37,722 nucleotides of DNA from a virus, in the IMG/VR virus record IMGVR_UViG_3300005613_000193, positions 1 through 37,722 of that record, one strand, 5' to 3'. The notes beneath the pieces were generated by a model, which saw nothing but the letters and a program-made list of their open reading frames with translations, searched no databases and was not told where the DNA came from. Within the stretch, counting starts at the first letter, position 1. Every line of letters starts with the position of its first letter. The translations under genes were made by a program, and so were the position numbers. This document shows, in pieces, positions 19,240-33,124 of the stretch.

Positions 19240-21699
19240 CTAACCAATTACCCAGCCAGTTATTACAACGTTTCCATTAAGCGCGGCTGCACCCACATTC
19301 TTTACCGTCACGTCCATAGTTCCAGCGCCCTGTTTTACACGAGTTAACTGCATCTGAGCATCATTAGCTCCAAGATTAGAAACAGTCAAGATTACTTGAG
19401 ATGTTGCTGATATCTTAGAGTTAGTGATTACAAAGACTTGACTTGCTGCTGCTGCTGTTGTAAAGCCTGTATAAGTACAAGCAAACACGTTAGTATTCGT
19501 TGTACAAGTTGCTCCTGCTTGTGAATCAGTTCCAGCAACCATTGTTACAAAACCAGCTGAGCTTAAATCAATTGATCCGCCACCTGTGGTTAAATCAATT
19601 CCGCCAGCTGCATTAGAAGAGGTAATAACAATCGCATCTGCTGCCGCTTCTGAAGAAGCAATATTTACCTGTAAAGCTCCATCAATGTCAACGCCTCCAG
19701 CACTTGCTGTTATATTAATAGCGTCATCACTAGCTAAACCTGACAGAAGTGTTAAACCTCCAACATCTGATTCTAACTGGATTGAACCTACTGCAGTACC
19801 TTGATCAGCATGTAATCTTATTTGTTCTGATGTGCCTCCGTTAGCATGTAAATAAATACTATCTGTAGCATCTTCTGTTGATGTAACAACAATATCTAAT
19901 GCTGCATCAATATCTAAGCCTCCGCTTGTACTTACTAAGTTGATAGCGTCTGCACTTGCAAGACCTGATGTTAAAGTAATTCCGCCAACATCTGATTCTA
20001 AACCAATTGAAGCCGCTCCTGTTCCTTGATCAGCATGTAATCTGATTGTTTCACTAGTTCCTGCATTAGCATGCAAATAAATTGCATCTGCTGCATCTTC
20101 ACCAGATGTTACTGTTACTCTACCTGCTGTTGAAGCTATATCTACATCTAAACCAGCTCCATCACAAGAAATATCCATGCCACCAGCTGAAGCATTAATA
20201 ACTACAGCGTCTGCCGCTGCTTCTGAAGAAGCAATATTTACTTGCAATGCTCCATCCACGTCCAAGCCTCCAGCCGCGCATTGGATTGTAACTGCATCGT
20301 CTACTGCTTCGCCGCCTGCAATATCTACTCTTCCAGCTACTGATGATAATGTTAAATCAATACCTGCTCCAGTTACTGTAAAGTTTGAAGCCGCTGCTGC
20401 ATCAAGAGAAATCGCTCCTGTAGAATCCAAGATTGTTCCGTTAGTACCAGAGTCAATGTCAATTCCTCCTGCCGCATTACCACAAGCAATATTTACAGCG
20501 TCTGCACTAGCAACACCACCAGAAATAGTTACGCCACCAACGTCAGAAAGTAAACTAATGCTAGCAACTCCTGTACCTTGGTCAGCATGAACTTCAATAG
20601 TTTCTGATGTTCCACCGTTTGCATGCACATAAATTGCTTTTGCTGCATCTTCTGTAGCGGTTACATTAATAGAAGCACCAGTGTTTGTAATGTCAATATC
20701 TTCGCCTGCTGTTCCAACTGCTGAGATATCAATACCTCCAGCACTTGCAGTAAGTGTTATTGCATCTGAAGCACTTTCACTTGATGAAATATTTACAGAA
20801 CTTCCAGTTGAAGCTATATCAATATCTTCGCCTGCTGCTGCTCCTGCACAGGTAATGTCTATTCCACCAATTGTAGAACTAATAACGATAGAATCTGCTG
20901 CGCTTTCACCCGCTGTTATGTTTACTGATCCAGCTGTACAAGTAATATCAACATCTTCGCCAGCCGCTCCCGCTGCTAAAAGATCAATGCCTCCAGCACT
21001 TGCGTTGATCACAATTGCATCCGCTGAGTTTTCAGATGAACTAATTGTTGTTGAAAGAGCTGAGTCCATATCAATTCCTCCAGCCGCTGAAACTAAGGTA
21101 ATTGCGTTGTCTGCTGCTTCTTCTGCATTAACTATTACTCTACCTGCTGCCGACGCTAATGTTAGATCTATGCCAGCTCCAGCTACACTAAAATTTGAAG
21201 CTGCATCTGCGTCAAGAGAAATCGTTCCTGTTCCGTCCGCATCTAAATCAGTAAAATTACCAGCCGCTGGTGTTGCGCTACCTATTTCCGCTGGTGCCGC
21301 TAATGCTTGTCCTAATTTTAAAGGCGTTACTATTCTATTATCATCTGTGAAAGCAATCGTTTCTGCTTGTGTTGCTAGTTCTGCTATACCTTTTGTGATT
21401 TCTGATGCATCAGTACATCCTGCTATTGCTACAGCAGCAAGTCCTGCTGGTGTATTTGCTATTGCTTCAGATGTCCCAGTTGCAGTTTCAGCTAATGTAG
21501 CCAGTCTAACAATACCTTTTGTTGTTGTTGTGCCGTCTGCTATTAGAGATTCAACCGCACTATCTAAGGTTGAGGGACTTATAGCTAAATCTGTTCTTGT
21601 TCCTGCTGCCGCCTCTGTAGAGTCCGCAAATTTTATTTCACCTGTTCTTTTTTGGTTGGCTTTAGGACCAACGTAAGAATTTGGTCTCGCAAATTTCAT
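19240..21699 (-). CDS. Large repetitive beta-solenoid tail fibre
   Basis: 819 aa with AAGGAG upstream. Residues 1-130 form the base with fibre motifs (TTTKGIVRLATLAETATG, EITKGIAELATQAET). From about 145 to 740 the chain is built of many imperfect rungs of roughly 20 residues, using AGGIDI, GEDVDI, SVNI, ADAIYLHANGG and SETIRLHADQGTG. This fits a beta-solenoid or triple-helix shaft. The last 90 residues form a small domain (QLTRVKQGAGTMDVTVKNVG) that probably closes the fibre. DNA copies of the rungs are nearly identical in places, so unequal recombination could change fibre length. It is the first gene of the late fibre block. Confidence 0.75.
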   Translation of the reverse strand: MKFARPNSYVGPKANQKRTGEIKFADSTEAAAGTRTDLAISPSTLDSAVESLIADGTTTTKGIVRLATLAETATGTSEAIANTPAGLAAVAIAGCTDASEITKGIAELATQAETIAFTDDNRIVTPLKLGQALAAPAEIGSATPAAGNFTDLDADGTGTISLDADAASNFSVAGAGIDLTLASAAGRVIVNAEEAADNAITLVSAAGGIDMDSALSTTISSSENSADAIVINASAGGIDLLAAGAAGEDVDITCTAGSVNITAGESAADSIVISSTIGGIDITCAGAAAGEDIDIASTGSSVNISSSESASDAITLTASAGGIDISAVGTAGEDIDITNTGASINVTATEDAAKAIYVHANGGTSETIEVHADQGTGVASISLLSDVGGVTISGGVASADAVNIACGNAAGGIDIDSGTNGTILDSTGAISLDAAAASNFTVTGAGIDLTLSSVAGRVDIAGGEAVDDAVTIQCAAGGLDVDGALQVNIASSEAAADAVVINASAGGMDISCDGAGLDVDIASTAGRVTVTSGEDAADAIYLHANAGTSETIRLHADQGTGAASIGLESDVGGITLTSGLASADAINLVSTSGGLDIDAALDIVVTSTEDATDSIYLHANGGTSEQIRLHADQGTAVGSIQLESDVGGLTLLSGLASDDAINITASAGGVDIDGALQVNIASSEAAADAIVITSSNAAGGIDLTTGGGSIDLSSAGFVTMVAGTDSQAGATCTTNTNVFACTYTGFTTAAAASQVFVITNSKISATSQVILTVSNLGANDAQMQLTRVKQGAGTMDVTVKNVGAAALNGNVVITGWVIG

Positions 21700-21768
21700 A
21701 GGTTTAACTCCTTGTTTAACCTTTTTAATTAAAAATATGTTTGTGTTGAATTAAATTAAAGTCTTTGC

Positions 21769-21796
21769 TTTACTTAAATTTTTAAACGTACATAAT
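21769..21796 (+). promoter_or_regulatory. Sigma70-like promoter of plus-strand island
   Basis: TTTACT (21769-21774), a 16-bp spacer and CATAAT (21791-21796) precede the ATG at 21806 by 9 nt. No Shine-Dalgarno is visible, so the first gene may be translated from a leaderless or near-leaderless mRNA. The site lies in the divergent gap opposite the large fibre gene. Confidence 0.5.
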
Positions 21797-21805
21797 TATT
21801 TAAAT

Positions 21806-21988
21806 ATGCATAAACAAGATGATAAACAGATACATAGACGTACTACACTGTGGTTGCCAAGGCAACTACATGACAAAGCAAAGATAATGGCTATATTAAC
21901 TAACTCTACGTTATCTGGATTAATCATAAGTGCATTAAATCAGAAACTCAAAGAACTTGATAAACAAATAAAGGGTGAAAATGAATAA
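21806..21988 (+). CDS. Ribbon-helix-helix DNA-binding protein
   Basis: 60 aa. The pattern RRTTLWLPRQLHDKAKIMAI then a turn and STLSGLIISALNQKLKEL matches the beta-strand plus two helices of CopG/Arc-type RHH proteins, which bind operators as dimers. It heads a plus-strand island of four small genes and could regulate its own promoter. The 3' end overlaps the next start by 8 bp. Confidence 0.6.
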   Translation: MHKQDDKQIHRRTTLWLPRQLHDKAKIMAILTNSTLSGLIISALNQKLKELDKQIKGENE

Positions 21989-22298
21989 ATATTTGTTAAC
22001 GTTATTTAGTTTAGCTTCTATTATATCTGGGTCAGAGGAAACAGACCAAATGGCAAAAGAAGCAGCCAACGAAGCTAAAAAAGGTGGGGTTGAAGCTGGT
22101 AAGTGTGTCGTTGAAGGCACGCTAGCTTATAAAGCTTTTATGCATGGAAAAGTAAGAGAGGGCGTCGTTGTCTCTGGAATGGCTGTGCATGCAGGCTATG
22201 AGGCTGGAAAGCACCTTTATAGAGCAAATAAGATTGAAGGGAAGAAGTGCGAGAAGTTCGCCGATGAATACAAAGCTAAAAAGAAGGGAGCTAAATAA
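21981..22298 (+). CDS. Exported small basic protein
   Basis: 105 aa from ATG 21981; a GTG two codons earlier is possible but AAAGGGTG fits the ATG better. The N-terminus MNKYLLTLFSLASIISGS looks like a signal peptide or membrane anchor. The rest is Ala/Gly/Lys-rich and helical, with a single central VREGVVVSGMAVHAGYEAG segment and a basic tail (KAKKKGAK). It could be a periplasmic or envelope factor. It overlaps the neighbouring genes on both sides, so it is co-translated with the two-TM protein. Confidence 0.55.
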   Translation: MNKYLLTLFSLASIISGSEETDQMAKEAANEAKKGGVEAGKCVVEGTLAYKAFMHGKVREGVVVSGMAVHAGYEAGKHLYRANKIEGKKCEKFADEYKAKKKGAK

Positions 22299-22459
22299 TG
22301 GACATGATCAAACTATTAGTGTTTCTAGTTAAATTTGTTATAGCATTTTCTTTTGCTATGTCTTACGTACAAACAAAGAAAAAAGATTATTTATTTATGA
22401 CTTCAACCATGATATTATTAATGATCATAGACGCATTACAACATTTATTAAATATATAG
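22298..22459 (+). CDS. 53-aa two-TM protein, holin-like
   Basis: This small gene starts in the stop of the upstream gene (TAATG). The protein has two hydrophobic helices (IKLLVFLVKFVIAFSFAMSY and LFMTSTMILLMIIDALQHLL) separated by a charged turn QTKKKD. A two-helix hairpin with a positive loop is the usual shape of small phage holins, and no other holin stands out. Function is unproven; it may instead be a membrane-exclusion or accessory peptide. Confidence 0.6.
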   Translation: MDMIKLLVFLVKFVIAFSFAMSYVQTKKKDYLFMTSTMILLMIIDALQHLLNI

Positions 22460-22469
22460 GAGCATATAA

Positions 22470-22793
22470 ATGAAAAAAAAAGAAAAAGAATTTACTAGCG
22501 AAGAGAAAATAGAGCTTTTAGTTGGCTATATAAAAGAAAAAAGTGGCTTAACTAGAGATGAGTTTCTTAATGACTTTGATGAGTTTAGTAAAGAGGTAAT
22601 CAAAGAAAAAGAAAAGGCAACAAACCCGTCTTTTAAAGATGAATTGCTTTCGGCTTTTGGTGAGCTTAATAGCAATCTAACTTACATTGGTGAGACTCTT
22701 TACGATTTATCAGCTTTTATTGAAAATTATTGTAATGATGAAGAAGATGATAGTGAAGATGAAGAAGAAGAAGATAACGTTGAAAATGATTAA
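22470..22793 (+). CDS. Acidic helical protein
   Basis: 107 aa with AGGAG upstream. The sequence is highly charged (KKKEKEFTSEEKIELLVGY) with a predicted amphipathic helix in the middle and a C-terminal acidic tail (DEEDDSEDEEEEDNVEND). Acidic tails of this type are seen in DNA-mimic and protein-binding phage factors, but no family is recognised. Its last 4 bp overlap the convergent zinc-finger gene. Confidence 0.55.
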   Translation: MKKKEKEFTSEEKIELLVGYIKEKSGLTRDEFLNDFDEFSKEVIKEKEKATNPSFKDELLSAFGELNSNLTYIGETLYDLSAFIENYCNDEEDDSEDEEEEDNVEND

Positions 22794-23065
22794 CCGTTTT
22801 CTATTGAGTCTAAATACCTATCTATTCCTTCTCGTGTAGATAGGTCAAACTTAGCCTTAAATGAAGTTATTTTATAGCCATTATATCTATTATTTCTATT
22901 CCTCTTAACATGCTCATGTAATTTAACCTTATTCTTTTCATAGTACTTCTTATTTAACTTTTTATTACATTCATAACATTTAGGACGAATAATCCCTCGG
23001 TTTTTTGTCATTTCGTTATGCGGCTTTTCTTTACCGCAATAATTGCATTTAGTCAATATGATCAT
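22790..23065 (-). CDS. Small zinc-finger protein after terminase
   Basis: 91 aa, starting within the stop of the large terminase (ATGA overlap). CNYCGKEK and a second pair in KCYEC mark a zinc-binding knuckle, followed by a basic helical stretch (NKKLNKKYYEKNKVKLHEH) and a C-terminal FDLSTREGIDRYLDS segment. It resembles the zinc-ribbon ends of small HNH-type proteins but lacks a visible HNH core. Position suggests a packaging-associated or late regulatory role. Confidence 0.6.
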   Translation of the reverse strand: MIILTKCNYCGKEKPHNEMTKNRGIIRPKCYECNKKLNKKYYEKNKVKLHEHVKRNRNNRYNGYKITSFKAKFDLSTREGIDRYLDSIENG

Positions 23066-24564
23066 ATTACTCTAAACCTCCGATTGTCTACTACTTGTCT
23101 GTGCTTAGCAAAAGAGCCTTTCATGTTAGAAACTGTTTCTATGTGATTGACTGCCTGGCACATATAGATAAAAGAGTCTGAAAAATCAGAATTAATATCG
23201 TGGAGGGGGGAATCAAGAAATTTACCAAATTGCTCACTCCACTTCTTACGGTATTTGTTCAAATGGTTTATCAGGTCTTTTGTCTTAAGCTCTGAAAACA
23301 CACATCTGCTAAACTTTTGTTTGGCATTACCTATGCTTATGTTCTTGTCTGAGCGTTTCAATATAATAAACTTTGTATCTGTATGGCTAAACAACTTTCG
23401 CATCTCTTTTTCATATGAGTTTGTTACAACAATACCATCTCTATGAGCTGCGTCATGTGGCAAAAAGATAGTGTGATATATATATGGTTTATCTTTAAGC
23501 AAGTGGGTAGCGTAATGATCAACTCCTTTGTTCTTATCAGAATAGCAATCAATTACTAGTATTTCACCGTGAATAACCTGAAAGAAAACAAGCACTGTCA
23601 TATCATTAATGCCAATATCTGCACTAACATAAACTGGGTGCAAGGCATCATAAACGTTGGTTTTTAAGATGCGTCTCTCGTTATAGGCTTGTTCTATATG
23701 CTCTTGAAAATAATAAGCTTCATTTGAGGAAAGGAAAGCCTCTGAAATAGTAGATGGAAATTCCTGTTTGACCTTATCGCCAAGGATTGATCGTTGGTGT
23801 GTGTACCATTTCTTTTGTTCAAGAGACAGTTCTATACCATGCTTTTCTTTTAACATGTCAAAATATTCTTCTTGCACCTTTACGATAGTTATATGTCGGT
23901 CATTAGACGTGTAGTTTTTGTCTAAAAACCAAGGGAAAAAAAAGAGTCGATATTCCATTGGAGAAAGATTTTCATTGCCTCTAATATGTGCTTGATTGCA
24001 CATATCTGCATAAAAACCCTCATTACCTTCCCCTGTACTTTCGATAATAACCTTTCCGCCAATAGGGATAGTTTGTAGCGTTCCAGTTACGACCTCTTCC
24101 GCTTTTATAGGGTTTCTAGCGCAGGTTTTACCAAACTCAGAGATAAGCACAACTTGATACGCTCCTCCCCTCAAGGTTGTATCAACTCTAAGATAAGAGC
24201 CATTAGCAAAACTTATTTCCCTAGCGCTTCGCTGTGTGATTTCCACACTGCTTTTGATCACTGGGGCTAATGTATCCAATGCGTGTCCAATAATTCGTTT
24301 AAAGATATGCTGTGCGTGTTCTAGACTGTATGAGACGATACCGCAAGAGGTGTTTTTATTAAAAATAGCTTCATCTAGCAGATATAGTACGGAGAAAGAT
24401 GACATCCCGAGCTGTCGGGCTTTCAAAATTAAATTACGATTATGCATACCATCAAACACCGCCTCTTGAACTGGATTCAGCCTAAAAGGTATTGAATCGC
24501 CGTTCTTGTCGACAATGCGATAGAGGTTGTTAAGCCTCCATTTCTTTGAGTCGAGGTTAATCAT
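23062..24564 (-). CDS. Terminase large subunit, P22 gp2-like size
   Basis: 500 aa, against 499 aa for P22 gp2. The packaging ATPase has Walker A KARQLGMSS at about 48-56 and Walker B VVLISE at 138-143, with the catalytic Glu143. The headful nuclease has Asp in SADIG (residue 316) and a later acidic cluster (HDINSDFSDSF). The motor docks on the portal, drives DNA into the procapsid and cuts at a full head, which agrees with a circularly permuted map. All key residues appear present. Start lies after a small GTG gene with a weak AAGAG site. Confidence 0.9.
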   Translation of the reverse strand: MINLDSKKWRLNNLYRIVDKNGDSIPFRLNPVQEAVFDGMHNRNLILKARQLGMSSFSVLYLLDEAIFNKNTSCGIVSYSLEHAQHIFKRIIGHALDTLAPVIKSSVEITQRSAREISFANGSYLRVDTTLRGGAYQVVLISEFGKTCARNPIKAEEVVTGTLQTIPIGGKVIIESTGEGNEGFYADMCNQAHIRGNENLSPMEYRLFFFPWFLDKNYTSNDRHITIVKVQEEYFDMLKEKHGIELSLEQKKWYTHQRSILGDKVKQEFPSTISEAFLSSNEAYYFQEHIEQAYNERRILKTNVYDALHPVYVSADIGINDMTVLVFFQVIHGEILVIDCYSDKNKGVDHYATHLLKDKPYIYHTIFLPHDAAHRDGIVVTNSYEKEMRKLFSHTDTKFIILKRSDKNISIGNAKQKFSRCVFSELKTKDLINHLNKYRKKWSEQFGKFLDSPLHDINSDFSDSFIYMCQAVNHIETVSNMKGSFAKHRQVVDNRRFRVI

Positions 24565-24612
24565 CTCTTTTTTCTCTTCTTGTGCCGATATTGCGTCAAT
24601 AAAAACATGTGC

Positions 24613-24786
24613 TTATATTGTGTCAACATTAACAAACTCTCTCTTCATAAAATCATACTCCATCTTAGGATCTAGATAATCTTTAATATCATGGCTTTCA
24701 ATACGCTCTATTACTATATCAAGCGCAGGACAAGAAGCCGTTAACTTAAAAATGCCCTTGATTGGCTCTTTAAATTCTTTATCCAC
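24613..24786 (-). CDS. 57-aa GTG-started gene between terminase subunits
   Basis: GTG at 24786 follows GGAG by 7 nt. The protein starts MDKEFKEPIKGIFKL and has a Cys-Pro step (TASCPALDIVIERIESHD) and an acidic, aromatic C-terminus (PKMEYDFMKREFVNVDTI). It is mixed alpha/beta and soluble. It lies between the small and large terminase genes, where short accessory genes sometimes occur. Its function is not recognised. Confidence 0.6.
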   Translation of the reverse strand: MDKEFKEPIKGIFKLTASCPALDIVIERIESHDIKDYLDPKMEYDFMKREFVNVDTI

Positions 24787-24850
24787 GCGGTGGCTCCTTT
24801 AGACTAAATGTTTATCTGACTATAGTAAAAGGGATGTTTAATGAAAAGGA

Positions 24851-25285
24851 TTAATCTTTCTGAACAATCGAATCTTTTGGATTATCTTTTAGAAGCTTTT
24901 TAACGCTATCGATAGATAGCTTTTCTTCCGATGAGTCTTTACCCCATTGAGCTTTCTTTTCTTGATGAGCAAGCCATTCGTCATCATAGCGAAAAAGATT
25001 CTCCTTTCCGAAGGTTGCATTCACGCCAGATTCCTTGTCATAAAAGCTAAGGTCAGATATCTTAGCTGACATTAGTTCCCTTGCTAACTGGTAAGATTCT
25101 TTAAATTCTGGGTGCAATTTACATATGTCTAAAAGCCATTGTCTGGTCTTTTTATACTTTCTACAAAACTTAGCAAAATGGATAGATTTATTGTTTTCTG
25201 CAAAGTCTATTAACTCATCACCTAACTTTTCTAATACATCAGGTGTAAACTTCATGGCATACTTGTTGCCCTTAGCTGCAGCCAT
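24851..25285 (-). CDS. Terminase small subunit
   Basis: 144 aa, near the 162 aa of P22 gp3. It starts AAAKGNKYAMKF, a typical opening of small terminases. An HTH-like segment follows at about 35-60 (SIHFAKFCRKYKKTRQWLL), then central helices (KESYQLARELMSAKISDL) for ring assembly and a charged tail that could bind the large subunit. It is the first gene of the late minus-strand cluster. In P22-like phages the pac site lies inside this gene; I cannot locate it here. Confidence 0.8.
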   Translation of the reverse strand: MAAAKGNKYAMKFTPDVLEKLGDELIDFAENNKSIHFAKFCRKYKKTRQWLLDICKLHPEFKESYQLARELMSAKISDLSFYDKESGVNATFGKENLFRYDDEWLAHQEKKAQWGKDSSEEKLSIDSVKKLLKDNPKDSIVQKD

Positions 25286-25362
25286 CTATCAACTCTTTAT
25301 TTTAATTAAAACCTCATCTTAGTAAAGATCAGCTAAATAAACAAGAATAAAGTTAAAAACAT

Positions 25363-25416
25363 TGTAGTGCAAAAGTGTTTTAGTGTATGATAATGTATAT
25401 CTCAAATAGTTGAGGT
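25363..25416 (+). promoter_or_regulatory. Early promoter A with start-site hairpin
   Basis: TTGTAG, a 17-bp spacer and TATGAT (25386-25391) form a sigma70-like promoter. The predicted start falls on ATCTCA-AATAGT-TGAGGT (25399-25416), a 6-bp RNA hairpin with one U-G pair. The core AGTGTATGATAATG then TATATCTCA is 22/23 identical to promoter C. It drives the cluster from 25439. Confidence 0.7.
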
Positions 25417-25438
25417 TAACAAAAAGAGGGTATGAAAA

Positions 25439-25669
25439 ATGGAAAACTACCAACTAATAATTCTTGTAGGTACAAACATTGCTATTTTTATGGGGATGCT
25501 ATCAACAATAGTAACGTTTCATATTTATTCCAATAAACAAATAGCAGAGTCAAGAAGAGATTTGGCAGCTTCAAATAAAGAATTTAATGAAAAAATTTAT
25601 GCATTGAATGAGAAAAGCCGTAGTTATAAAAATGTGGGACGACCAAAAGGAGCGAAGAACAAAAAATGA
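25439..25669 (+). CDS. Membrane-anchored protein with basic AT-hook-like end
   Basis: 76 aa. Residues 5-28 form a transmembrane helix (LIILVGTNIAIFMGMLSTIV). A helical charged stalk follows (ESRRDLAASNKEFNEKIYAL). The C-terminus is VGRPKGAKNKK, a GRPKG core similar to AT-hooks that bind the minor groove of AT-rich DNA. This suggests a protein that could tether DNA to the membrane. It is the first gene after promoter A and overlaps the RHH gene by 4 bp (ATGA). Confidence 0.6.
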   Translation: MENYQLIILVGTNIAIFMGMLSTIVTFHIYSNKQIAESRRDLAASNKEFNEKIYALNEKSRSYKNVGRPKGAKNKK

Positions 25670-25830
25670 AAGATAAAAAGACCAAGCGAGTATCTGTATA
25701 CCTAACCGATATAGAACATAGCAAAGTAAAGGCTGAATGCGCCAAGAAGCGCATAACCATAACGAAAGCTATAAGGTTTTCGTTGATAGAATATATTGAT
25801 AAGATAGCTAAGGAGAATAAAAATGGATGA
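25666..25830 (+). CDS. Small ribbon-helix-helix-like regulator
   Basis: 54 aa, starting in the stop of the upstream gene (ATGA). KRVSVYLTDIEHSKVKAECA then KRITITKAIRFSLIEYI shows the strand-helix-helix layout of RHH repressors. It is a second RHH protein in the genome, besides 21806-21988. As it lies early in an operon with repeated promoters, it is a candidate regulator of them. Confidence 0.6.
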   Translation: MKDKKTKRVSVYLTDIEHSKVKAECAKKRITITKAIRFSLIEYIDKIAKENKNG

Positions 25831-25912
25831 GTTCGAGTTCCTAAAGCCCGTCTTTGTGATGGTGCTAGGTATTTTAATAGGCAGATTCTTAACTATAAGA
25901 AAGGAGAAATAA
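25823..25912 (+). CDS. 29-aa single-TM microprotein
   Basis: It overlaps the RHH gene by 8 bp. MDEFEFLKPVFVMVLGILIG then RFLTIRKEK gives an acidic N-terminus, one hydrophobic helix and a basic end, consistent with a small inner-membrane peptide. A ribosome site is weak (AAGGAG is 18 nt back), so it is probably coupled to the upstream gene. The next gene's Shine-Dalgarno lies inside its last codons. Confidence 0.45.
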   Translation: MDEFEFLKPVFVMVLGILIGRFLTIRKEK

Positions 25913-25914
25913 AA

Positions 25915-26361
25915 TTGGAATGTGAATATTGTAACAATGAAATGAATAAAATGTTTAAAAGGTCATCATTAATGTTTTGCATATTCTGTTATTTAGACAA
26001 CAGAAATATATTAACAGATAGATATCGATATATTTGCAATTCAATAATATATGATAAAAAGACAACCCAAGATTTGGCTTTAGAATTGAATATATCTCGT
26101 GAAAGAGTAAGCCAAATTATACGTAAGTCTTTGAGAATTATTAATCATAGAAATAAATTACACAAAGAAGGTGAATTAAGAAATATAGATTTTGGCAAAA
26201 ATAATACAAGAATCCAAAAGGCTTTAGATAGATTAAAAATAAACACCATAGATGAACTAATGAAGTATCCCGCAAATGAATTTTTAAAATGTAGAAATCT
26301 AGGTGTTGAATCAATAAAAGATATTTTAAATTTTAAATGGGAGACAGAAAATGAACTATGA
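25915..26361 (+). CDS. Zinc-ribbon, sigma-4 and alpha-CTD-like transcription factor
   Basis: 148 aa with a TTG start; AAGGAG lies 8 nt upstream. C3, C6, C22 and C25 form a zinc-ribbon-like pair. Residues 50-77 (TTQDLALELNISRERVSQII) match region 4 of sigma factors, including the RERV turn. Residues 103-141 (LKINTIDELMKYPANEFLKC then RNLGVESIKDILN) match the helix-hairpin-helix domain of RNA polymerase alpha-CTD, with the NLG/S core kept. Each part is known to bind promoter DNA or the polymerase. Together they suggest a phage factor that redirects host transcription, perhaps from early to late genes. Its target is unknown. Confidence 0.75.
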   Translation: MECEYCNNEMNKMFKRSSLMFCIFCYLDNRNILTDRYRYICNSIIYDKKTTQDLALELNISRERVSQIIRKSLRIINHRNKLHKEGELRNIDFGKNNTRIQKALDRLKINTIDELMKYPANEFLKCRNLGVESIKDILNFKWETENEL

Positions 26362-26629
26362 TTTTGCAATGACCGTGATTGTTGAGAATCTGTATAACTC
26401 TGAGAATGATATAAATAGAGAGCTGTTGCATGAGGCAGTCAAATATTTAGTTGAAAACACAGATTGTAAAGATACCGCCTTAGAATATCTTGAAGAGGGC
26501 GACTTTACATACTATGAAAGTGATTTAAATATTAGTCACACAAAGCAAGCAAAAGAAAAGGCAATGAATGCTTTTTTAGATGCTCAAGATAAAGCAAATC
26601 AATACTTTATAAAAGGATTAGAAGAATGA
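26351..26629 (+). CDS. Hypothetical acidic protein
   Basis: 92 aa, overlapping the upstream gene by 11 bp. Helical, acidic, with LYNSENDINRELLHEAVKYL and a C-terminal EKAMNAFLDAQDKANQYF. No membrane or zinc motif. Its context is an early operon between a transcription-factor-like gene and an envelope protein. Function not recognised. Confidence 0.55.
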   Translation: MNYDFAMTVIVENLYNSENDINRELLHEAVKYLVENTDCKDTALEYLEEGDFTYYESDLNISHTKQAKEKAMNAFLDAQDKANQYFIKGLEE

Positions 26630-27087
26630 AAAAGATAATATTTTTAGTGTTAGCAAGTTGTGCTTGTTTTTGTTACGAGAAAGAAGAAAAACTACCATTA
26701 GCACAAAGCTATAGATATGTTGGATTAGATGTACCGTTATACTTTATACCTGGCGTTTGTGTCGGTGAAAAAATAAAGCTAAGCGATACAGATTCTGGTG
26801 ACTATTCCATTGGAGCACATATTAATCCATGGTTAGTACAAGTCTATGGATCAGTTAAGAGAGACTATTATTATAAGAAAAACATGTATGTTGGATCAGG
26901 CATATTTGCTGGATTCGTGAAATATAATGCTTATGATAAAGTCATATTTGCTTTTGCCCCTGTCATTTGTCACGGCTGGGAACATGGAGACAGCTTTTCT
27001 GAGATAAATGTTTACTGTCCAAGCTTTTCGACTGCTGGGGCTGTGTACAAGCCTAACGTAACATATAAATTAGGGTTTAAATTTTAG
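26626..27087 (+). CDS. Exported outer-membrane-like protein
   Basis: 153 aa, starting in the upstream stop (ATGA). MKKIIFLVLASCACFCYEKE has a basic start, hydrophobic core and cysteines, consistent with a signal peptide or lipobox. The mature part alternates short beta strands (YSIGAHINPWLVQVYGSV, YVGSGIFAGFVKYN) with aromatic residues and ends KLGFKF. A terminal Phe is a common outer-membrane targeting signal. It resembles short surface proteins of intracellular bacteria by eye, which I could not test. It is likely a non-essential host-interaction gene such as superinfection exclusion or surface modification. Confidence 0.55.
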   Translation: MKKIIFLVLASCACFCYEKEEKLPLAQSYRYVGLDVPLYFIPGVCVGEKIKLSDTDSGDYSIGAHINPWLVQVYGSVKRDYYYKKNMYVGSGIFAGFVKYNAYDKVIFAFAPVICHGWEHGDSFSEINVYCPSFSTAGAVYKPNVTYKLGFKF

Positions 27088-27140
27088 TTGTTAAAAATAG
27101 TGTAAAAGTGTAAAATAAGTGTATCTCAAGCAATTGGGAT
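27088..27140 (+). promoter_or_regulatory. Early promoter B with start-site hairpin
   Basis: TTGTTA (27088-27093), a 17-bp spacer and TAAAAT (27111-27116). The expected start lies at ATCTCA-AGCAAT-TGGGAT (27123-27140), again a 6-bp hairpin with one U-G pair, at a different position from copy A. It shares AGTGTAAAATAA and TATCTCA with copies A and C. It drives the ERF and YqaJ recombination genes. Confidence 0.7.
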
Positions 27141-27162
27141 GCACATAACAAATGGAGAAAAA

Positions 27163-27723
27163 ATGAAAAGTTTTAAGAAAAAGTTAATAGACGCAAGAAA
27201 AGAAATGAATAATCCTGCAAGAGGCGGGGTTGATGCATTTAAGAAACGTAAGTACGTAACGCTTCAAGATTTATATGACGCTGTACTGCCTGCGTTGCTT
27301 GATGAAGGTTTAATCTTAACTAATACTAAAGAAATTAGAGATGAAAAGCTAACGTTAGTAACTAAGATAGAAGATTGTGACAGCGCGGAGTTTATTGAAA
27401 CAATAGCTGTGCTAAATAGCGATCTTAAGATTCAAGAGCAAGGTTCCGAGTTAACCTACCATTCAAGATATAATCTAGGCTGCTTATTATCGATTAGAAC
27501 AGATTTCGATGATGACGGTGCTAGCGCTAATAAGCCAAAAGATCTTTCAAAGAAGATTCTGCAGGTAAGAACATTGTTAGCTAAGCTAGACCCAGAAAAG
27601 AGAGAGTATATTGAAGCTAAGATAGGCAACATTCAACTTGCTGATGAAAAGAAGCTTGATGAAATTATAAAGTATTTAGAATCTGAAATACGCAAATCAA
27701 TAGGGGTATCAAATGGCAATTAG
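27163..27723 (+). CDS. erf: ERF-family single-strand annealing protein
   Basis: 186 aa from ATG 27163 with GGAG 5 nt upstream. It shows the family signature: KYVTLQDLYDAVLPALLDEG near the N-terminus, then GSELTYHSRYNLGCLLSI and a DFDDDGA acidic turn (about residues 95-130). ERF proteins anneal complementary single strands and, with a nuclease, drive recombination of linear phage DNA. P22 Erf is 204 aa. It overlaps the YqaJ gene by 11 bp, which fits a coupled annealase and exonuclease pair. Confidence 0.85.
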   Translation: MKSFKKKLIDARKEMNNPARGGVDAFKKRKYVTLQDLYDAVLPALLDEGLILTNTKEIRDEKLTLVTKIEDCDSAEFIETIAVLNSDLKIQEQGSELTYHSRYNLGCLLSIRTDFDDDGASANKPKDLSKKILQVRTLLAKLDPEKREYIEAKIGNIQLADEKKLDEIIKYLESEIRKSIGVSNGN

Positions 27724-28594
27724 ATTAGATTTATCTCAGTCGACTTCTGAATGGCGTTCATGGAGAAAAACTCGTCTTGGTGGAACAGACACGGCTAAAA
27801 TACTCGAGCAATCACCATATGGAACACCTTATAGTTGTTACATGGAAAAGACTACAGACGTAGAGATTCCAGATAACAAATGGATGAAAAGAGGTCGAGA
27901 GCTTGAGCCAGTTGCAAGAAGCTGTTTGATGGGCTTACACAAAGTTTTATTAGAGCCAGCTTGTTTTGACTCAAGCGAGTATCCATTTATGAGTGCCTCG
28001 CTTGATGCGGTTACTAGAAACAATAAGATGGCTTTTGAAATTAAGTGCTTAAGCTTAAAGAATACTCAAGAAGTTATCTCTTCTGGAATAGTCCCACAAC
28101 ATTATTACATCCAGGTACAAAAGCAAATGTTAGTGCTTGGCTTAGATAAGATGGGCATATTCTTTTACTATGATGAAGATACCAATATTTTGATCAATGT
28201 TGACAAAGATAAAGAGCTTCACAAAGAGATAATTGAGAAAGAGACTTTGTTTTGGAATAATTTAGTTAGTGAGATTCCACCTAAAAAGTCAAAGAAAGAT
28301 GAGGTTAAAGTCTATAATGACATTGAAGATTTTGAATTTATTAAAGAGGCTCAGATGTATAAAGAGCTATGCGACCAAATAAAGGAGCTAGAATCGATTA
28401 AGAAAGAAAGCCATGATAGATTGCTTGCCTTAGCTGATAAGAAGGAATATAAAGGCTATGGAATAACAATCAGCAAGACTGTTTCAAACGTTGTCAATTA
28501 CAAAGATCTATTTAAAAAATTAAACTTAGACGAAAAGACGTTGAATAAATATACTAATGAACGAGTAAGTTGGAAAATTAACGTTTCTAATTAA
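27713..28594 (+). CDS. YqaJ/lambda-type exonuclease
   Basis: 293 aa. It shows the usual order of catalytic parts: RLGGTD (21-26), GRELEP (61-66), SASLDA with Asp98, and FEIKC with Glu109 and Lys111, followed by a QVQKQM helix with its Gln. This is a PD-(D/E)xK nuclease of the YqaJ family that degrades one strand from DNA ends so that the upstream ERF protein can anneal. C-terminal helices are long and charged. It is followed by a strong terminator. Confidence 0.88.
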   Translation: MAIRLDLSQSTSEWRSWRKTRLGGTDTAKILEQSPYGTPYSCYMEKTTDVEIPDNKWMKRGRELEPVARSCLMGLHKVLLEPACFDSSEYPFMSASLDAVTRNNKMAFEIKCLSLKNTQEVISSGIVPQHYYIQVQKQMLVLGLDKMGIFFYYDEDTNILINVDKDKELHKEIIEKETLFWNNLVSEIPPKKSKKDEVKVYNDIEDFEFIKEAQMYKELCDQIKELESIKKESHDRLLALADKKEYKGYGITISKTVSNVVNYKDLFKKLNLDEKTLNKYTNERVSWKINVSN

Positions 28595-28614
28595 TTTTCA
28601 TTTTTTCACTCCAT

Positions 28615-28646
28615 AAGGGTTGCCTGAAATGGTAGCCCTTTTTTTT
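28615..28646 (+). terminator. Strong Rho-independent terminator
   Basis: AAGGGTTGC and GTAGCCCTT form a 9-bp stem with two G-U pairs and an 8-nt loop, followed by six more T after the stem. It ends the ERF-YqaJ operon. Confidence 0.85.
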
Positions 28647-28727
28647 GCTTAATCATTCAAATAATCTTTTGTATAAAATCCAAATTTTAATTACAATGGT
28701 ATGCAAATACCTTACCACAGGATTTGT

Positions 28728-29519
28728 ATGAAAAATTCAGTTGTAGAAGTCATTGATAACGATCTTTATATGGGATCATGGCAGTTAAGCCAAGTTTTTG
28801 AAGTTGAACATAGAAGTTTTAGAAGAATTATTGATAAATACATGAAACAGATCGTTGAAGTTGGAGAAATAGAGCTAAAAGAACGAACTTCTTATTGCAA
28901 TTCAATGGTAATAAGAAATGGAAAAAAGAAACAAAAAAAGAGTCCTCCAATTAAAGAATATTTGCTAAACGAACCGCAAGCAACGTTTGTTGTTCTTTTG
29001 TTAAAAGGAAAATATAAAACTGATAAAGTTTCTTTGGTCGTTAAATTTAAACAACACATTGCTTCTCAATTTTTCAAGCAAAGAAAATTACTAACAAAAC
29101 TTTTAGCTCAAAAACAAAACGCTGAGTGGTTACAAGCTAGAGAACAAGGCAAGATAGACAGATGCTATTGTACTGATGAGATTAAGGCTTTTGTTGAATA
29201 TGCAATAAAGCAAGGATCTAAAAACGCAAGAAAATATTATATAATCATATCGAAGATGGAAAATAAGACATTGTTTAATTTTGACTTTCTATCTCAAAAG
29301 TTTCCCAATATTAGAGACATTGCAACAAGGCAACAACTCTCAACGCTTGAAGCTGCTGATAGAATCATTGCTAAAGCTATCAAAGATGGCATGGAACAGG
29401 GATTACATTATAAAGAGATATATAAGAAGGCTAAAGATAATTTAGATCAGTTCTCGCAAATTATTGGCAAAACTCCATTACAAGTGATATATCAGAAAAG
29501 CCCTCTAATGCTAAATTAA
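28728..29519 (+). CDS. Rha-type phage regulatory protein
   Basis: 263 aa from ATG 28728, chosen for AGGA 5 nt upstream over an ATG at 28701. The N-terminal domain holds DNDLYMGSWQLSQVFEVEHR, FRRIIDKY, NEPQATFVVLLLKGKY and VVKFKQHIASQFF, the order found in Rha regulators. The C-terminal half is helical and basic and may be a second DNA-binding or oligomerisation domain. Rha proteins alter phage growth in certain hosts. The gene stands alone between two terminators. Confidence 0.75.
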   Translation: MKNSVVEVIDNDLYMGSWQLSQVFEVEHRSFRRIIDKYMKQIVEVGEIELKERTSYCNSMVIRNGKKKQKKSPPIKEYLLNEPQATFVVLLLKGKYKTDKVSLVVKFKQHIASQFFKQRKLLTKLLAQKQNAEWLQAREQGKIDRCYCTDEIKAFVEYAIKQGSKNARKYYIIISKMENKTLFNFDFLSQKFPNIRDIATRQQLSTLEAADRIIAKAIKDGMEQGLHYKEIYKKAKDNLDQFSQIIGKTPLQVIYQKSPLMLN

Positions 29520-29548
29520 AAAAAGAGCCATCCGAAGACAGCTCTCTC
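29520..29548. terminator. Bidirectional terminator after Rha gene
   Basis: AGAGC (29524-29528) and GCTCT (29541-29545) enclose a 12-nt loop. The seven-A run before it becomes a U-run on the minus strand, and a weaker T-rich run follows on the plus strand. Confidence 0.6.
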
Positions 29549-29677
29549 ATTTTAAACAAAACTTCTTTCTATGAGCACTCATGTGCTAACCTAACCTTAC
29601 TAGATCTGTAGATTTATTAAAATAAAATAAAGATATATCTAAGCCTTTTCAAATAAACAATTGATGCTAAAAAAGAT

Positions 29678-29706
29678 AAGAGCCTCTTTTTTACGGAGGC
29701 TCTTTT
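29678..29706. terminator. Strong bidirectional terminator
   Basis: AAGAGCCTC and GAGGCTCTT form a perfect 9-bp stem with a 9-nt loop and T/A tracts on both sides. It insulates the replication gene from the Rha gene. Confidence 0.8.
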
Positions 29707-29733
29707 AATTTGAAATAATTTCTTTGATTAAAA

Positions 29734-29819
29734 TAATACTTAGTATTAAATTAAACTTTACTTTCTATTTGTGGTTACTTAGAAAGTAAAAAAATTACTC
29801 ATATTCCCAATAATATGAG
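29734..29819. promoter_or_regulatory. Three stacked dyads upstream of replication gene
   Basis: TAATACT-T-AGTATTA (29734-29748), TTACTTTCT and AGAAAGTAA around a 14-nt gap (29758-29789), and CTCATATT-CCCAAT-AATATGAG (29798-29819) are perfect inverted repeats. They fall between a terminator and the replication initiator, where promoters, operators or an antisense control RNA are expected. No other gene lies in 29520-29929. Confidence 0.6.
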
Positions 29820-29929
29820 CAAAAGAATAATGTAAATCGTTCTTTATTTAAAGTACAAACATTATTTTAATTTTGCACTTAGGGCATATGAGGTTAATAA
29901 ACAAGTTAACACATAGCCACGGAGGCAAT

Positions 29930-30886
29930 ATGTCAGAATCAAAAAAATATAATTTAAGTTCAATACATCATTCTTTTGATATATCACTAGCAGAAGAGTA
30001 CGGAATAGAAGAAGCTATTTTAATACATCATTTACAGCATTGGATCTCATTAAATAATAGAAAAGGTAAGAATATAATAAATGGTAAGACATGGTCTTAT
30101 CAGACTACTCAAAGTATTGCAGATCATTTCCCATATTTAAGTTCTGATAAGATTAGAGACATTTTACATAAACTAGAGAATGGACAAGCTAGAAGAGGGA
30201 AACACAAGGCCTTTGAACCTGTAATAATAAAAGGAAACTTTAATAAGCTAAAGATTGACAAAACTATTTGGTTTGCATTTATTGATGAAGATAGATTTTT
30301 ACCAAATATTTCAAAAAAAGATTACGAAAGGGTTAAAACCCATACGTCTGGGTATAAACCCAATCGAGATGGGTATAAACCCAAAGCAATACCAGATCCT
30401 AAAACGTCAGATACTAAAAATACAGATATAAAAGGAACGTTAAAAGGAGAGGAATCGCCCTTACCTAAATCGGTAAGTGAAGAAAAGAAAGAGGAAGTAG
30501 CCGGGATAATGGACTTTGCTAAAGATAATTCTTTAAACGTCTCAAGAGACGATATAAAGAAATGGCTGAGAAAATATGGGGGCGAGATGGTTTTAAGCTC
30601 TTTAAGGCTAGCTCTAAAGTCAAAGAGACCTATTGACAATCATGCTGGATGGTTAGAAACTGCTTTGAAGAATGATTGGGCTAAATTAGCAAGTAACATT
30701 CCAACAAACAGAGACTACATCAAAGGCTTAGTAAAAAAACACAATCTTAACGAGATAAGAGTTTTAAAAAACTACCTAACAATAGATGCTTTAGGTTATG
30801 AAGTATACTTTAATGCTTCACCTGAAACTTTTAAACGCACAATATTGAAAAAGTTTGAAATAATCTACCCAAACAAAGGTTTTTAG
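29930..30886 (+). CDS. Replication initiator with winged-helix-like N-terminus
   Basis: 318 aa from ATG 29930 with GGAGG 4 nt upstream; an in-frame upstream start lacks a site. Residues 8-110 (IHHSFDISLAEEYGIEEAIL, WSYQTTQSIADHFPYLSSDK) are typical of phage replication initiators. The linker at about 130-175 is polar and is encoded by iterons. The C-terminal part is helical (YIKGLVKKHNLNEIRVLKNY). As in lambda O, the protein probably binds the repeats in its own gene and recruits the host helicase. No helicase or polymerase gene is present. Confidence 0.75.
   Translation: MSESKKYNLSSIHHSFDISLAEEYGIEEAILIHHLQHWISLNNRKGKNIINGKTWSYQTTQSIADHFPYLSSDKIRDILHKLENGQARRGKHKAFEPVIIKGNFNKLKIDKTIWFAFIDEDRFLPNISKKDYERVKTHTSGYKPNRDGYKPKAIPDPKTSDTKNTDIKGTLKGEESPLPKSVSEEKKEEVAGIMDFAKDNSLNVSRDDIKKWLRKYGGEMVLSSLRLALKSKRPIDNHAGWLETALKNDWAKLASNIPTNRDYIKGLVKKHNLNEIRVLKNYLTIDALGYEVYFNASPETFKRTILKKFEIIYPNKGF
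30329..30383 (+). repeat. Iterons inside replication gene (probable origin)
   Basis: Three palindromic units, GGGTTAAAACCC (30330-30341), TGGGTATAAACCCA (30349-30362) and the same again (30370-30383), recur every 20-21 bp, so all face the same side of the helix. An AT-rich stretch follows. The arrangement parallels the lambda origin inside gene O. Confidence 0.75.
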
Positions 30887-30888
30887 CC

Positions 30889-31014
30889 ATGAATAAAAAA
30901 GACCAAACAGACGAACAAAGAGAGCTTGTGTGGCAGAAACTGCAAGAGGAACAACGCAAACAAACATGTGCTTATATCTTAGCGCTATCTAAGCAAGAAC
31001 TACCAGAGTTTTAA
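30889..31014 (+). CDS. 41-aa small charged protein
   Basis: It starts 2 bp after the replication gene stop. MNKKDQTDEQRELVWQKLQE then EQRKQTCAYILALSKQELPEF is helical and charged. No ribosome site of note, so expression probably depends on the upstream gene. It could be a helicase-loader-like helper only by position; no motif supports this. Confidence 0.4.
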   Translation: MNKKDQTDEQRELVWQKLQEEQRKQTCAYILALSKQELPEF

Positions 31015-31085
31015 AAAAATAACTTTTATGTTTTAAAATATTTGTTACATCTGTTATATCTGAACTTTAACAAAAGAGGTATAAA

Positions 31086-31274
31086 ATGGATCAATCTTTG
31101 AGACAAGAAAAGTTAATCGATAATATTTGCAAGTCAATGACTGAGATGATCAAGGAATTTCCTAAATGCTTAAAGTATACTAAACCAGCTAGAAGAAACC
31201 GGGTAAAATCTGTTGAACTTGAGAAAATGATGAAAGAGTGGCGCAAGTTAAGTACAGCATTAGGCTTTAAATAG
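31086..31274 (+). CDS. Small basic protein, histone-like style
   Basis: 62 aa with GAGG upstream. The C-terminal part, KPARRNRVKSVELEKMMKEW then RKLSTALGF, is basic and helical, similar in style to short phage proteins annotated as histone-like. It could bind nucleic acid. No fold can be assigned with certainty. Confidence 0.5.
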   Translation: MDQSLRQEKLIDNICKSMTEMIKEFPKCLKYTKPARRNRVKSVELEKMMKEWRKLSTALGFK

Positions 31275-31324
31275 GTTTTAAATAGGCTTAAAGGCTTTAA
31301 AATAAAAAATACGGGGAATTTGTC

Positions 31325-31510
31325 ATGATTAAGTTAAAAGTGCGTATAAAGGCAGAAAACAAAGGTTATTCACAAGAAGAGACGTTGGAAGATAATTTCA
31401 ATGTTTCAAAGACGAACCCTAAGCTTGAAGCTCTGGTTCAGAAAATAGTTGACGACTCAAAGCTTCAAAACATTGAAGATGTTATTGTTACAGCTAAATT
31501 TGAGTGGTAA
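31325..31510 (+). CDS. Small hypothetical protein
   Basis: 61 aa. A beta-hairpin-like start (MIKLKVRIKAENKGYSQEE) is followed by a helix (PKLEALVQKIVDDSK) and a final strand (VIVTAKFEW). The alternating pattern suggests a small alpha/beta fold. It abuts the next start with no gap, so both are co-translated. Function unknown. Confidence 0.5.
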   Translation: MIKLKVRIKAENKGYSQEETLEDNFNVSKTNPKLEALVQKIVDDSKLQNIEDVIVTAKFEW

Positions 31511-31771
31511 ATGGAAATAAAAATTATAGAATTCTTTCCAGATGACAGAGGCTTGAAGAAAGGTACTGTTGATTTCATGATTTCTCATACTCATGAAAAG
31601 TCTGAGACTTTTAGAAATATCGGCTTTTTTCAAAAAGAAAACAGATCATGGCTTAATATACCAGCCTTCAAAAGAAATGAAGAGTGGTTTCCAGTTTATG
31701 ATCGGCCTGGATTAAAAGAGTTATTAAAAGATGTTTTGAGCGAAGTGCATAAATATTTAGAGCAATATTAA
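31511..31771 (+). CDS. SpoVG-like small phage protein
   Basis: 86 aa, starting immediately after the upstream stop. KKGTVDFMIS, FRNIGFFQKENRSWLNIPAF and EWFPVYDRPGLKELLKDVL match the order of a small phage family related to the SpoVG fold, which binds nucleic acid. The match is by eye. The 3' end overlaps the convergent minus-strand gene by 4 bp. Confidence 0.5.
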   Translation: MEIKIIEFFPDDRGLKKGTVDFMISHTHEKSETFRNIGFFQKENRSWLNIPAFKRNEEWFPVYDRPGLKELLKDVLSEVHKYLEQY

Positions 31772-32016
31772 TTTATAACTCCGTCTAGATTTTCGTTTAT
31801 TAGCCTGATTAATTGTCTTTTATGCCGCCAAGCTTCAAAGACTATATACGGATATGTGATAGAGCTAAACTCTTTCTCATACAATCTCTGAAAGCCAAAA
31901 TAGTATTTATCTTGAGTAGAATTGTATTCAAAAGACATATCTTGGTTGTTAAAATGCTTTTTGATGCTACGTAGTTTTCTTCTTCTAAAGTATCTGGTGA
32001 TAAAGTTCTTTTTCAT
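31768..32016 (-). CDS. Basic hypothetical protein on opposite strand
   Basis: 82 aa with AAGGAG before ATG. The N-terminus is very basic (KKNFITRYFRRRKLRSIKKH). The rest has aromatic residues (DKYYFGFQRLYEKEFSSITY) and no membrane helix. It is the only minus-strand gene in the middle of the early block. It is divergent from the ncRNA candidate and rusA. Function unknown; a regulator is possible because of location and charge. Confidence 0.55.
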   Translation of the reverse strand: MKKNFITRYFRRRKLRSIKKHFNNQDMSFEYNSTQDKYYFGFQRLYEKEFSSITYPYIVFEAWRHKRQLIRLINENLDGVIN

Positions 32017-32035
32017 TAAAACTCCTTTTATTTTA

Positions 32036-32065
32036 TTGTACTAAAATATAAGATAATAGTATATT
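32036..32065 (+). promoter_or_regulatory. Promoter for ncRNA/attenuator candidate
   Basis: TTGTAC (32036-32041), an 18-bp spacer and TATATT (32060-32065) form a good sigma70-like site. The predicted start at about 32072 leads into the structured region before rusA. Confidence 0.55.
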
Positions 32066-32071
32066 AAAAAT

Positions 32072-32160
32072 CAACATAGTAACCCCTAGGTTTAACTTAG
32101 GCAGTGGCGTACCCTTCCTTATGTTATGTTATATAGATCCTTTGCTGCTGCCTATTTTTT
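32072..32160 (+). ncRNA. Candidate small RNA or attenuator before rusA
   Basis: The predicted transcript carries a near-palindrome (CCTAGGTTTAACTTAGG, 32085-32101) and then a terminator: TAGGCAGTGGCG pairs with TGCTGCTGCCTA, 12 bp with three G-U pairs, followed by six T (32155-32160). There is no ORF inside. Because rusA starts 8 nt after the T-run, the element could be a free sRNA or an attenuator that controls rusA. The two stems share bases 32098-32101, so they may be mutually exclusive. Confidence 0.5.
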
Positions 32161-32168
32161 GAGAGCTT

Positions 32169-32564
32169 ATGAATGAGAAAAAGATTGTCATAGATCAGAC
32201 CCCAATTCCACAAGGAAGGCCTCGAGTTACACGTTGGGGAACTTTTGATCCGAACAAAGATTCTAAGAACTGGATTCGCCTACAGATTAGAGAACAATTT
32301 AACGAAAAGCTTGAGTGTCCGATTGAAGTAGAGATTATGTTCTTTATGCCAATTCCGAAATCTACCTCTAAGAAAAAGCAAATAATGATGATGGCTAATG
32401 AGATTAAGCATGTGAAACGTTCTGATCTTGATAATTTATATAAATTGTACACTGATTGTATGACAGAAATAGTCTATAAAGATGATAGTCAAATCCATAA
32501 ATGCTACATTGAAAAAATGTATTCAGACCATCCAAGAGTTGAAATACTTATTAAGTGGGAATAA
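32169..32564 (+). CDS. rusA: RusA-like Holliday junction resolvase
   Basis: 131 aa. The N-terminus has TPIPQGRPRVTRWG, the usual RusA opening. The catalytic region is KRSDLDNLYKLYTDCM with Asp86 and Asp88, followed by VYKDDSQI with Asp105; these match the acidic residues of RusA. E. coli RusA is 120 aa. The dimer cuts four-way junctions made by recombination and replication, which fits the ERF/YqaJ pair. A weak ribosome site and the upstream terminator suggest low or controlled expression. Confidence 0.88.
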   Translation: MNEKKIVIDQTPIPQGRPRVTRWGTFDPNKDSKNWIRLQIREQFNEKLECPIEVEIMFFMPIPKSTSKKKQIMMMANEIKHVKRSDLDNLYKLYTDCMTEIVYKDDSQIHKCYIEKMYSDHPRVEILIKWE

Positions 32565-32605
32565 GTTGGGGAAATGCGTTCCCCAATAAATATTGTTTAT
32601 TCCCA
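32556..32605. other. Nested hairpins between convergent genes
   Basis: Outer arms TGGGAATAA and TTATTCCCA (9 bp) enclose inner arms TTGGGGAA and TTCCCCAA (8 bp, 5-nt loop). The rusA stop codon lies in the outer arm. There is no U-run. It likely marks the 3' end of both convergent transcripts. Confidence 0.55.
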
Positions 32606-32620
32606 ATCCATTCCTAAAGT

Positions 32621-32771
32621 CTATTCAATTAAGCCGTTTAAAGGTTTGCTCCAGATTTGACCAAGCTTATTAAATGCAAATTTTTTCAATTCTTGCTCTT
32701 CGTAATCTGTATCAGCAATAGCAGCTATAATACGATCAATCTTAGCTTTTGCTTTCCAGATATTTTGATCT
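32621..32771 (-). pseudogene. Second part of antirepressor-like gene (+1 frame)
   Basis: After the stop of the 100-aa frame, the +1 frame continues with EDQNIWKAKAKIDRIIAAIA then DTDYEEQELKKFAFNK and ends at 32621. It has no good start of its own apart from a possible TTG. It is best seen as the C-terminal part of the same protein, separated by a single-base frame change, probably in the T6 run at 32784-32789 or at AAA-TGA. Confidence 0.55.
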
Positions 32772-33074
32772 TCATTTTGAAACAAAAAACCAAAGTCCTG
32801 GACGGTTATAACATCTAATTGGAATTGTTCTTTTATGCTTCACAACGGTATCCACATTGGATACCCCTGCGATCTCTCTTTTTAACTCCAAGACACACGA
32901 AGTATGTTCAAAATATTCTTTAAATTTATTATAAATCTTTTTTGATTGTTGGTGCGGATTTTTATATCCAAGATGTCTACAGATATCGACTCCAGTAATA
33001 TACCACTTATCAGTATAAGGTTTTCTAAAAAGAGCTAAACCATCTTGTTCTCTAAATTGAATCTTATTTTTCAT
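32772..33074 (-). CDS. BRO/antirepressor-like protein, N-terminal frame
   Basis: 100 aa with a strong AGGAGGG site. The core DKWYITGVDICRHLGYKNPH then QQSKKIYNKFKEYF and the later CYNRPGLWFFVSK follow the order of the N-terminal DNA-binding domain of phage antirepressors (BRO-N or ORF6N style). The frame ends soon after the domain, but the +1 frame continues for about 50 more residues. Its leader can form a pseudoknot over the ribosome site, and a 24-bp palindrome lies upstream. It probably acts in a regulatory switch; the target is unknown. Confidence 0.6.
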   Translation of the reverse strand: MKNKIQFREQDGLALFRKPYTDKWYITGVDICRHLGYKNPHQQSKKIYNKFKEYFEHTSCVLELKREIAGVSNVDTVVKHKRTIPIRCYNRPGLWFFVSK

Positions 33075-33077
33075 AGA

Positions 33078-33122
33078 CCCTCCTCGAAAGGTTAAAAGCG
33101 GGGCTAGTTCGAGGCTAGCCCC
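33078..33122 (-). promoter_or_regulatory. Candidate pseudoknot over antirepressor ribosome site
   Basis: Minus-strand RNA: GGGGCUAG and CUAGCCCC (33115-33122 and 33100-33107) form a perfect 8-bp stem. Its 7-nt loop CCUCGAA (33108-33114) is fully complementary to UUCGAGG (33082-33088), which overlaps the AGGAGGG Shine-Dalgarno (33078-33084). The second helix would hide the ribosome site. Confidence 0.65.
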
Positions 33123-33124
33123 AA

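Follow-up and report, generated by a model that had tools for sequence, protein, structure and literature searches.

A 148-residue phage protein that joins sigma region 4 to an alpha-CTD-like domain and carries a putative zinc ribbon

The window, meaning the whole stretch of DNA analysed here, is a viral sequence of 37,722 nucleotides (IMG/VR record IMGVR_UViG_3300005613_000193) whose two ends, 1-123 and 37600-37722, form a perfect 123-bp direct terminal repeat. Because of this end repeat, the genome is probably complete and circular (or terminally redundant), with a length of 37,599 bp. Recognised genes encode a P22-like portal, ERF, YqaJ, Rha, RusA, and a DnaD-like replication protein. No Pfam or PHROG RNA polymerase occurs among the ORFs scanned, and to that extent the statement of the sequence-only reading that there is no phage RNA polymerase holds. 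The gene of interest here (Table 1) encodes a 148-aa protein, starts with TTG, has an AAGGAG ribosome site 8-9 nt upstream, and lies near the start of a rightward early operon, before the ERF, YqaJ and replication genes. The divergent intergenic region that precedes this operon is likely a regulatory region. A promoter scan of 21600-33700 gave no excess of sigma70-type sites, no target motif or late-promoter motif was found for the 148-aa protein, and Rfam gave no match.

Table 1. Features of the early-operon locus and of proteins that carry both domains. Coordinates are positions in the window; accessions and contig labels are given for relatives.
Feature	Location or record	Strand	Evidence or remark
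148-aa protein: sigma70 region 4, alpha-CTD-like domain, putative zinc ribbon	25915..26361	+	ORF, Pfam, AlphaFold model, Foldseek
Putative zinc ribbon, C3-x2-C6-x15-C22-x2-C25	25921..25989	+	Motif, sub-threshold A2L_zn_ribbon
Sigma region 4 (4.1 and 4.2), residues 30-74	26002..26136	+	PF04545, Foldseek 1ku3, alignment
Alpha-CTD-like domain (Pfam core, residues 98-138)	26176..26355	+	PF03118, Foldseek 1lb2, alignment
Divergent intergenic region, small-terminase-like gene (-) / early operon (+)	25286..25438	.	Gene layout
First early-operon ORF	25439..25669	+	No Pfam or PHROG match
ParG-like ribbon-helix-helix protein, directly upstream	25666..25830	+	PF09274 1.1e-4, above cut-off; phrog_876 0.0017
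Downstream overlapping ORF, same operon	26351..26629	+	
Compact fusion group, 121-190 aa	L004, L005, L009, L012, L201, L220-L226, L228-L236		Motif-core scan
Compact fusion pair, 127 aa	L007, L013		Motif-core scan
Fusions with longer core spacing	L274, L275		Motif-core scan, longer spacing
Gut-phage fusions with extra N-terminal HTH (HTH_17)	MT835636, MT837876		tblastn
Chryseobacterium plasmid fusion	WP_124785686		tblastn; both domains, annotated as alpha domain only

Both domains of the 148-aa protein are recognised by Pfam above their gathering scores: Sigma70_r4 at 1.3e-8 (34.7 bits against 24.1) and RNA_pol_A_CTD at 6.3e-9 (35.9 bits against 23.8). Pairwise alignment agrees, with a score of 59 for E. 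coli sigma70 region 4 (shuffles 24 +/- 4.4) and 53 for the E. coli alpha-CTD (shuffles 23 +/- 4.2), each above all 500 shuffles. RpoA and sigma-70 models of NCBIfam also match, with scores well under their whole-protein cut-offs, as expected because the domains are isolated. The occurrence of sigma region 4 and an alpha-CTD in one 148-aa chain is thus a real observation and is confirmed. The sequence-only reading had placed a region 4 helix-turn-helix (HTH) at residues 50-77 and an alpha-CTD at 103-141; both assignments hold and both ranges are close to those of Pfam, in which the earlier start of region 4 reflects the presence of region 4.1 as well. The KorA/TrfB repressor family (KORA, PF16509) scores 0.015, at 16 bits below its cut-off of 26.7. 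Sigma regions 2 and 3 serve in core binding and -10 recognition. Pfam gave no region 2 match at E values up to 10, and since regions 2 and 3 are absent, the protein cannot be a sigma factor.

An AlphaFold2 model built from a five-row alignment has pLDDT of about 80-90 in the region 4 core and in the alpha-CTD part, and a long helix (residues 62-85) links the recognition helix to the linker. Its pTM is 0.46, and the mutual placement of the two domains is not fixed by the model. In a Foldseek comparison with the PDB, the first domain matches the sigma region 4 structures 1ku3 (54 columns superposed at an rmsd of 2.0 A), 8jzt and 3hug, and the second matches the alpha-CTD structures 1lb2 (47 columns superposed at an rmsd of 1.2-1.4 A), 3gfk and 1z3e; the probabilities for 1ku3, 8jzt, 1lb2, 3gfk and 1z3e are 0.98-1.0, and KorA/ArdK structures are further HTH matches. 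None of the Foldseek E-values is better than 0.13, as is often the case for domains this short (about 50 residues), so the fold match backs the domain assignment without proving it. Profile search and structure prediction of the protein alone had been proposed as a check in which the predicted fold might lack a domain; both domains were recognised and neither is missing.

Contact residues were compared with E. coli sigma70 and alpha reference sequences that had been checked against PDB entries. Among the sigma70 residues that read the -35 element (R584, E585, R588 and Q589), three have kept equivalents (R62, E63 and Q67), and R588 corresponds to S66. The HTH looks competent to bind DNA because these three of four residues are kept. 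Half of the six positions that form the UP-element DNA face of the alpha-CTD are also kept, with R265, G296 and S299 corresponding to R99, G130 and S133; the others are changed, N268 to K102, C269 to A103 and K298 to E132, the last being a charge reversal. With these three changes, the alpha domain may have another mode of DNA binding, or its role may be that of a protein contact. Other fusion proteins that were aligned keep both R265 and N268. No sigma H5-like segment follows the recognition helix. Sigma H5 helps to contact the beta-flap (PMC2988021), so that a beta-flap contact by the 148-aa protein is doubtful.

The zinc ribbon is putative and unproven, and rests on a four-cysteine motif and a sub-threshold profile match. 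When the protein is shuffled, 0.19% of the resulting sequences contain a motif of the CxxC-x15-CxxC type. A2L_zn_ribbon scores 0.043 (14 bits), below its cut-off of 22.9, and pLDDT over residues 1-30 is below or near 50. The cysteine motif is present in none of the relatives found, and a search of viral contigs for one exact cysteine spacing together with region 4 gave no second example. Similar cysteine motifs occur in two other proteins of the same genome (3165-3350 and 22790-23065).

Proteins with both domains recur beyond this genome. A further 25 viral contigs from metagenomes encode them, as do two gut-phage records and one Chryseobacterium plasmid, and they fall into at least six divergent forms. 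Compact fusions were found in 23 viral contigs by scanning for the two motif cores at set spacing; cores lie 63-66 residues apart in these forms, a range that is itself bounded by the search pattern. All representatives tested exceed the Pfam cut-offs for Sigma70_r4 and RNA_pol_A_CTD, each divergent relative tested has a clearly recognisable alpha-CTD, and one relative reaches the KORA cut-off. Mean pN/pS in the largest group, that of L220, is 0.24 over 66 pairs, and by this comparison of sequences the group is under purifying selection. Two longer members of the compact group (L201 2774-3328, minus strand; L004 2734-3336, plus strand) have a second C-terminal HTH, which in L201 matches the Mor activator (3.9e-6). 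In two contigs (L233 6173-8048, plus strand; L228 11140-13024, minus strand) the fusion gene lies directly before a P-loop (GPPGTGKTT) gene and overlaps it by a few bases.

Close relatives of the whole 148-aa protein were not found in viral contigs by peptide patterns, and named phages and plasmids gave weak matches only. Several candidates were set aside. Pattern scanning of genome contigs gave in-frame matches that were other proteins, among the matches listed, and is no measure of rarity. Profile searches of about 350 genomes from the phylum of a Lachnospiraceae genome and 395 from the phylum of a Muricauda genome gave proteins that are RpoA-like by length and coverage, among the matches listed. 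Candidate G032:C12 lacks the alpha-CTD motif, Mazun gp26 and Goe8 have an alpha-CTD and no region 4, and the matches in Vibrio phage 207E48.1 and VAP7 seem to be larger proteins of the sigma type.

Phages that share the terminase provide a second comparison. Among 62 terminase-sharing loci, the portal (56 fetched loci) and the product of 5625-6557 (38), a probable capsid protein by position and conservation, are widely kept. With phmmer at E values up to 1e-4, the sole match to the 148-aa protein outside its own genome was the Chryseobacterium plasmid protein. Of 29 larger records from these relatives, a single one encodes an alpha-CTD protein above the cut-off, which lacks region 4, and a single one encodes a region-4 protein on its own; some records are fragments, which makes the absence of the fusion gene approximate. 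That phages which share the terminase, portal and capsid genes lack this gene speaks against a conserved early-late switch and for an accessory regulator. In one terminase relative the alpha-CTD is found in a protein of 140 aa that has a C-terminal tail and lacks region 4 (L077 5224-5646, minus strand; L078 1465-1885, plus strand), and in another a 115-aa protein gives an alpha-CTD-like match that is weak and below threshold (L079 1372-1717, plus strand). Pseudomonadota terminase relatives are only about 35% identical and do not identify the host.

Three HNH-type endonuclease genes lie within the late region of the genome (7672-8163, plus; 8374-9129, plus; 18551-19180, minus), matching PF01844 and PF13392, with the 8374-9129 match below cut-off. 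Two of the three are opposite in strand to the late genes, and long antisense ORFs (7633-8112 and 8332-8967) overlap them there. The product of 14728-15492 (minus), likely a fibre-type protein, shows similarity in its C-terminal part to the C-terminal domain of Pgp3 (PF05475; 3.6e-4, under the cut-off). Large repeat-rich Gly/Ala/Ser/Thr proteins (19240-21699, 12208-14688 and 15512-17086, all minus), probably fibre or appendage components, are present in few terminase-sharing relatives.

Sigma region 4 and the alpha-CTD are neighbours on promoter DNA in the host enzyme. The alpha-CTD reads UP elements, and region 4 reads the -35 element and contacts the beta-flap; in phage T4, MotA takes the -35 position in place of region 4 and host sigma keeps the -10 element (PMC2988021). 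We give an even chance to the reading that the 148-aa protein is an accessory, probably early-expressed DNA-binding regulator that acts on host polymerase at promoters. Its region-4 HTH would recognise, through the major groove, an operator or a sequence like the -35 element, and its alpha-CTD-like domain, on a short helical linker, would touch the neighbouring minor groove or, alternatively, dock on host polymerase through sigma region 4 or alpha. Once bound at a promoter, the protein would raise or lower host-polymerase activity there in a MotA-like manner. We infer both DNA binding and polymerase binding by analogy with these systems, and an action on host polymerase is plausible. This regulator reading is supported by the presence of both domains in sequence and predicted fold, kept contact residues, the recurrent pairing, the pN/pS value and the early-operon position beside a ribbon-helix-helix gene; it is weakened by the high Foldseek E-values, the changed alpha DNA-face residues, the missing H5-like segment and the lack of a target motif.

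Other explanations fit parts of the same evidence. The sequence-only reading proposed that the factor could redirect host polymerase and may run the early-late switch. Taken as an essential switch to late promoters, this idea gains from a genome that looks complete and in which no phage polymerase was recognised, and from the closeness of the gene to the divergent early/late region. It is not supported: phages with the same late genes lack this gene, whose neighbours in the early operon are variable genes, the search gave no late-promoter motif and the protein cannot act as sigma, so we consider such a switch very improbable. Early-operon position and the presence of both upstream-promoter-binding modules would also suit a host-takeover inhibitor, a mimic of region 4 and the alpha-CTD that competes for activators, UP elements or the beta-flap. 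Phages are known to encode proteins that act on region 4 or push sigma aside, such as P7 of Xp10 and AsiA. Such an inhibitor would lower host transcription, and we rate it as unlikely: there is no H5-like segment for a beta-flap hook, the kept DNA-binding residues of the HTH would be unneeded by a pure decoy, and the gene is accessory, being missing from relatives that share the late genes.

A simpler function is that of a plain KorA-like DNA-binding repressor or activator, in which the alpha-CTD fold only oligomerises or binds DNA non-specifically and makes no polymerase contact. The weak KORA score, KorA/ArdK structures among the Foldseek matches, the relative that reaches the KORA cut-off and the degenerate DNA residues of the alpha domain are all consistent with it. 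Yet the profile match to sigma region 4 is much the stronger one (1.3e-8 against 0.015) and the alpha-CTD is clear in every divergent relative tested, so that this function also has a low probability, similar to that of the inhibitor. Changed alpha-CTD positions at the DNA face and the lack of a close relative might instead mark a decaying acquisition with no current function, but this is the least credible reading given an intact ORF with a good ribosome site, a four-cysteine motif, a preserved recognition helix, and purifying selection in divergent relatives.

Both domains are familiar ones, and databases already contain phage proteins labelled as alpha-CTD; no description of the combination with sigma region 4 was found in the open-access literature. 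It is possible, although we incline against it, that these fusions form a scattered, unnamed class of phage and mobile-element factors that copy the -35/UP unit and retarget or block host polymerase, here with an added, putative zinc ribbon. The 148-aa protein would be a minimal natural mimic of the host unit that reads these elements. If it binds the -35/UP junction, it would offer a tractable test of whether the unit works without core polymerase, and would give a name to a phage-factor class whose present database labels mention the 'alpha C-terminal domain' alone. Otherwise, it would be a modest DNA-binding regulator.

Among database entries, the nearest in kind are UniProt/BFVD proteins named 'RNA polymerase, alpha subunit, C-terminal [uncultured Caudovirales phage]' (128-135 aa). 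A0A6J7WD60 and A0A6J5MNY7 are like the 148-aa protein in size and align by Foldseek over most of the model; A0A6J5M7I6 and A0A6J5L490 are of similar size and also match it. TM-scores are low, region 4 in these proteins is our inference, and no zinc motif is known in them. Fusion proteins found here share the order Sigma70_r4 then RNA_pol_A_CTD in one chain, with 22-28% identity to the 148-aa protein for the phage members aligned; several differ by longer linkers or an extra HTH, none has the N-terminal cysteine motif, and those aligned keep N268, which is lost in the 148-aa protein. T4 MotA/AsiA offers an analogy only, that of a small phage factor at the -35 position (PMC2988021); Pfam gave no match to the MotA or AsiA families, and no homology is claimed. 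Compared with host sigma70, the protein lacks regions 2 and 3 and an H5-like segment and has serine for R588, but it shares the region 4 fold and the recognition helix RER(V/I)xQI. Compared with host alpha, it lacks the N-terminal domain, carries N268K, C269A and K298E and has a shortened domain end, but it shares the alpha-CTD fold together with R265, G296 and S299.
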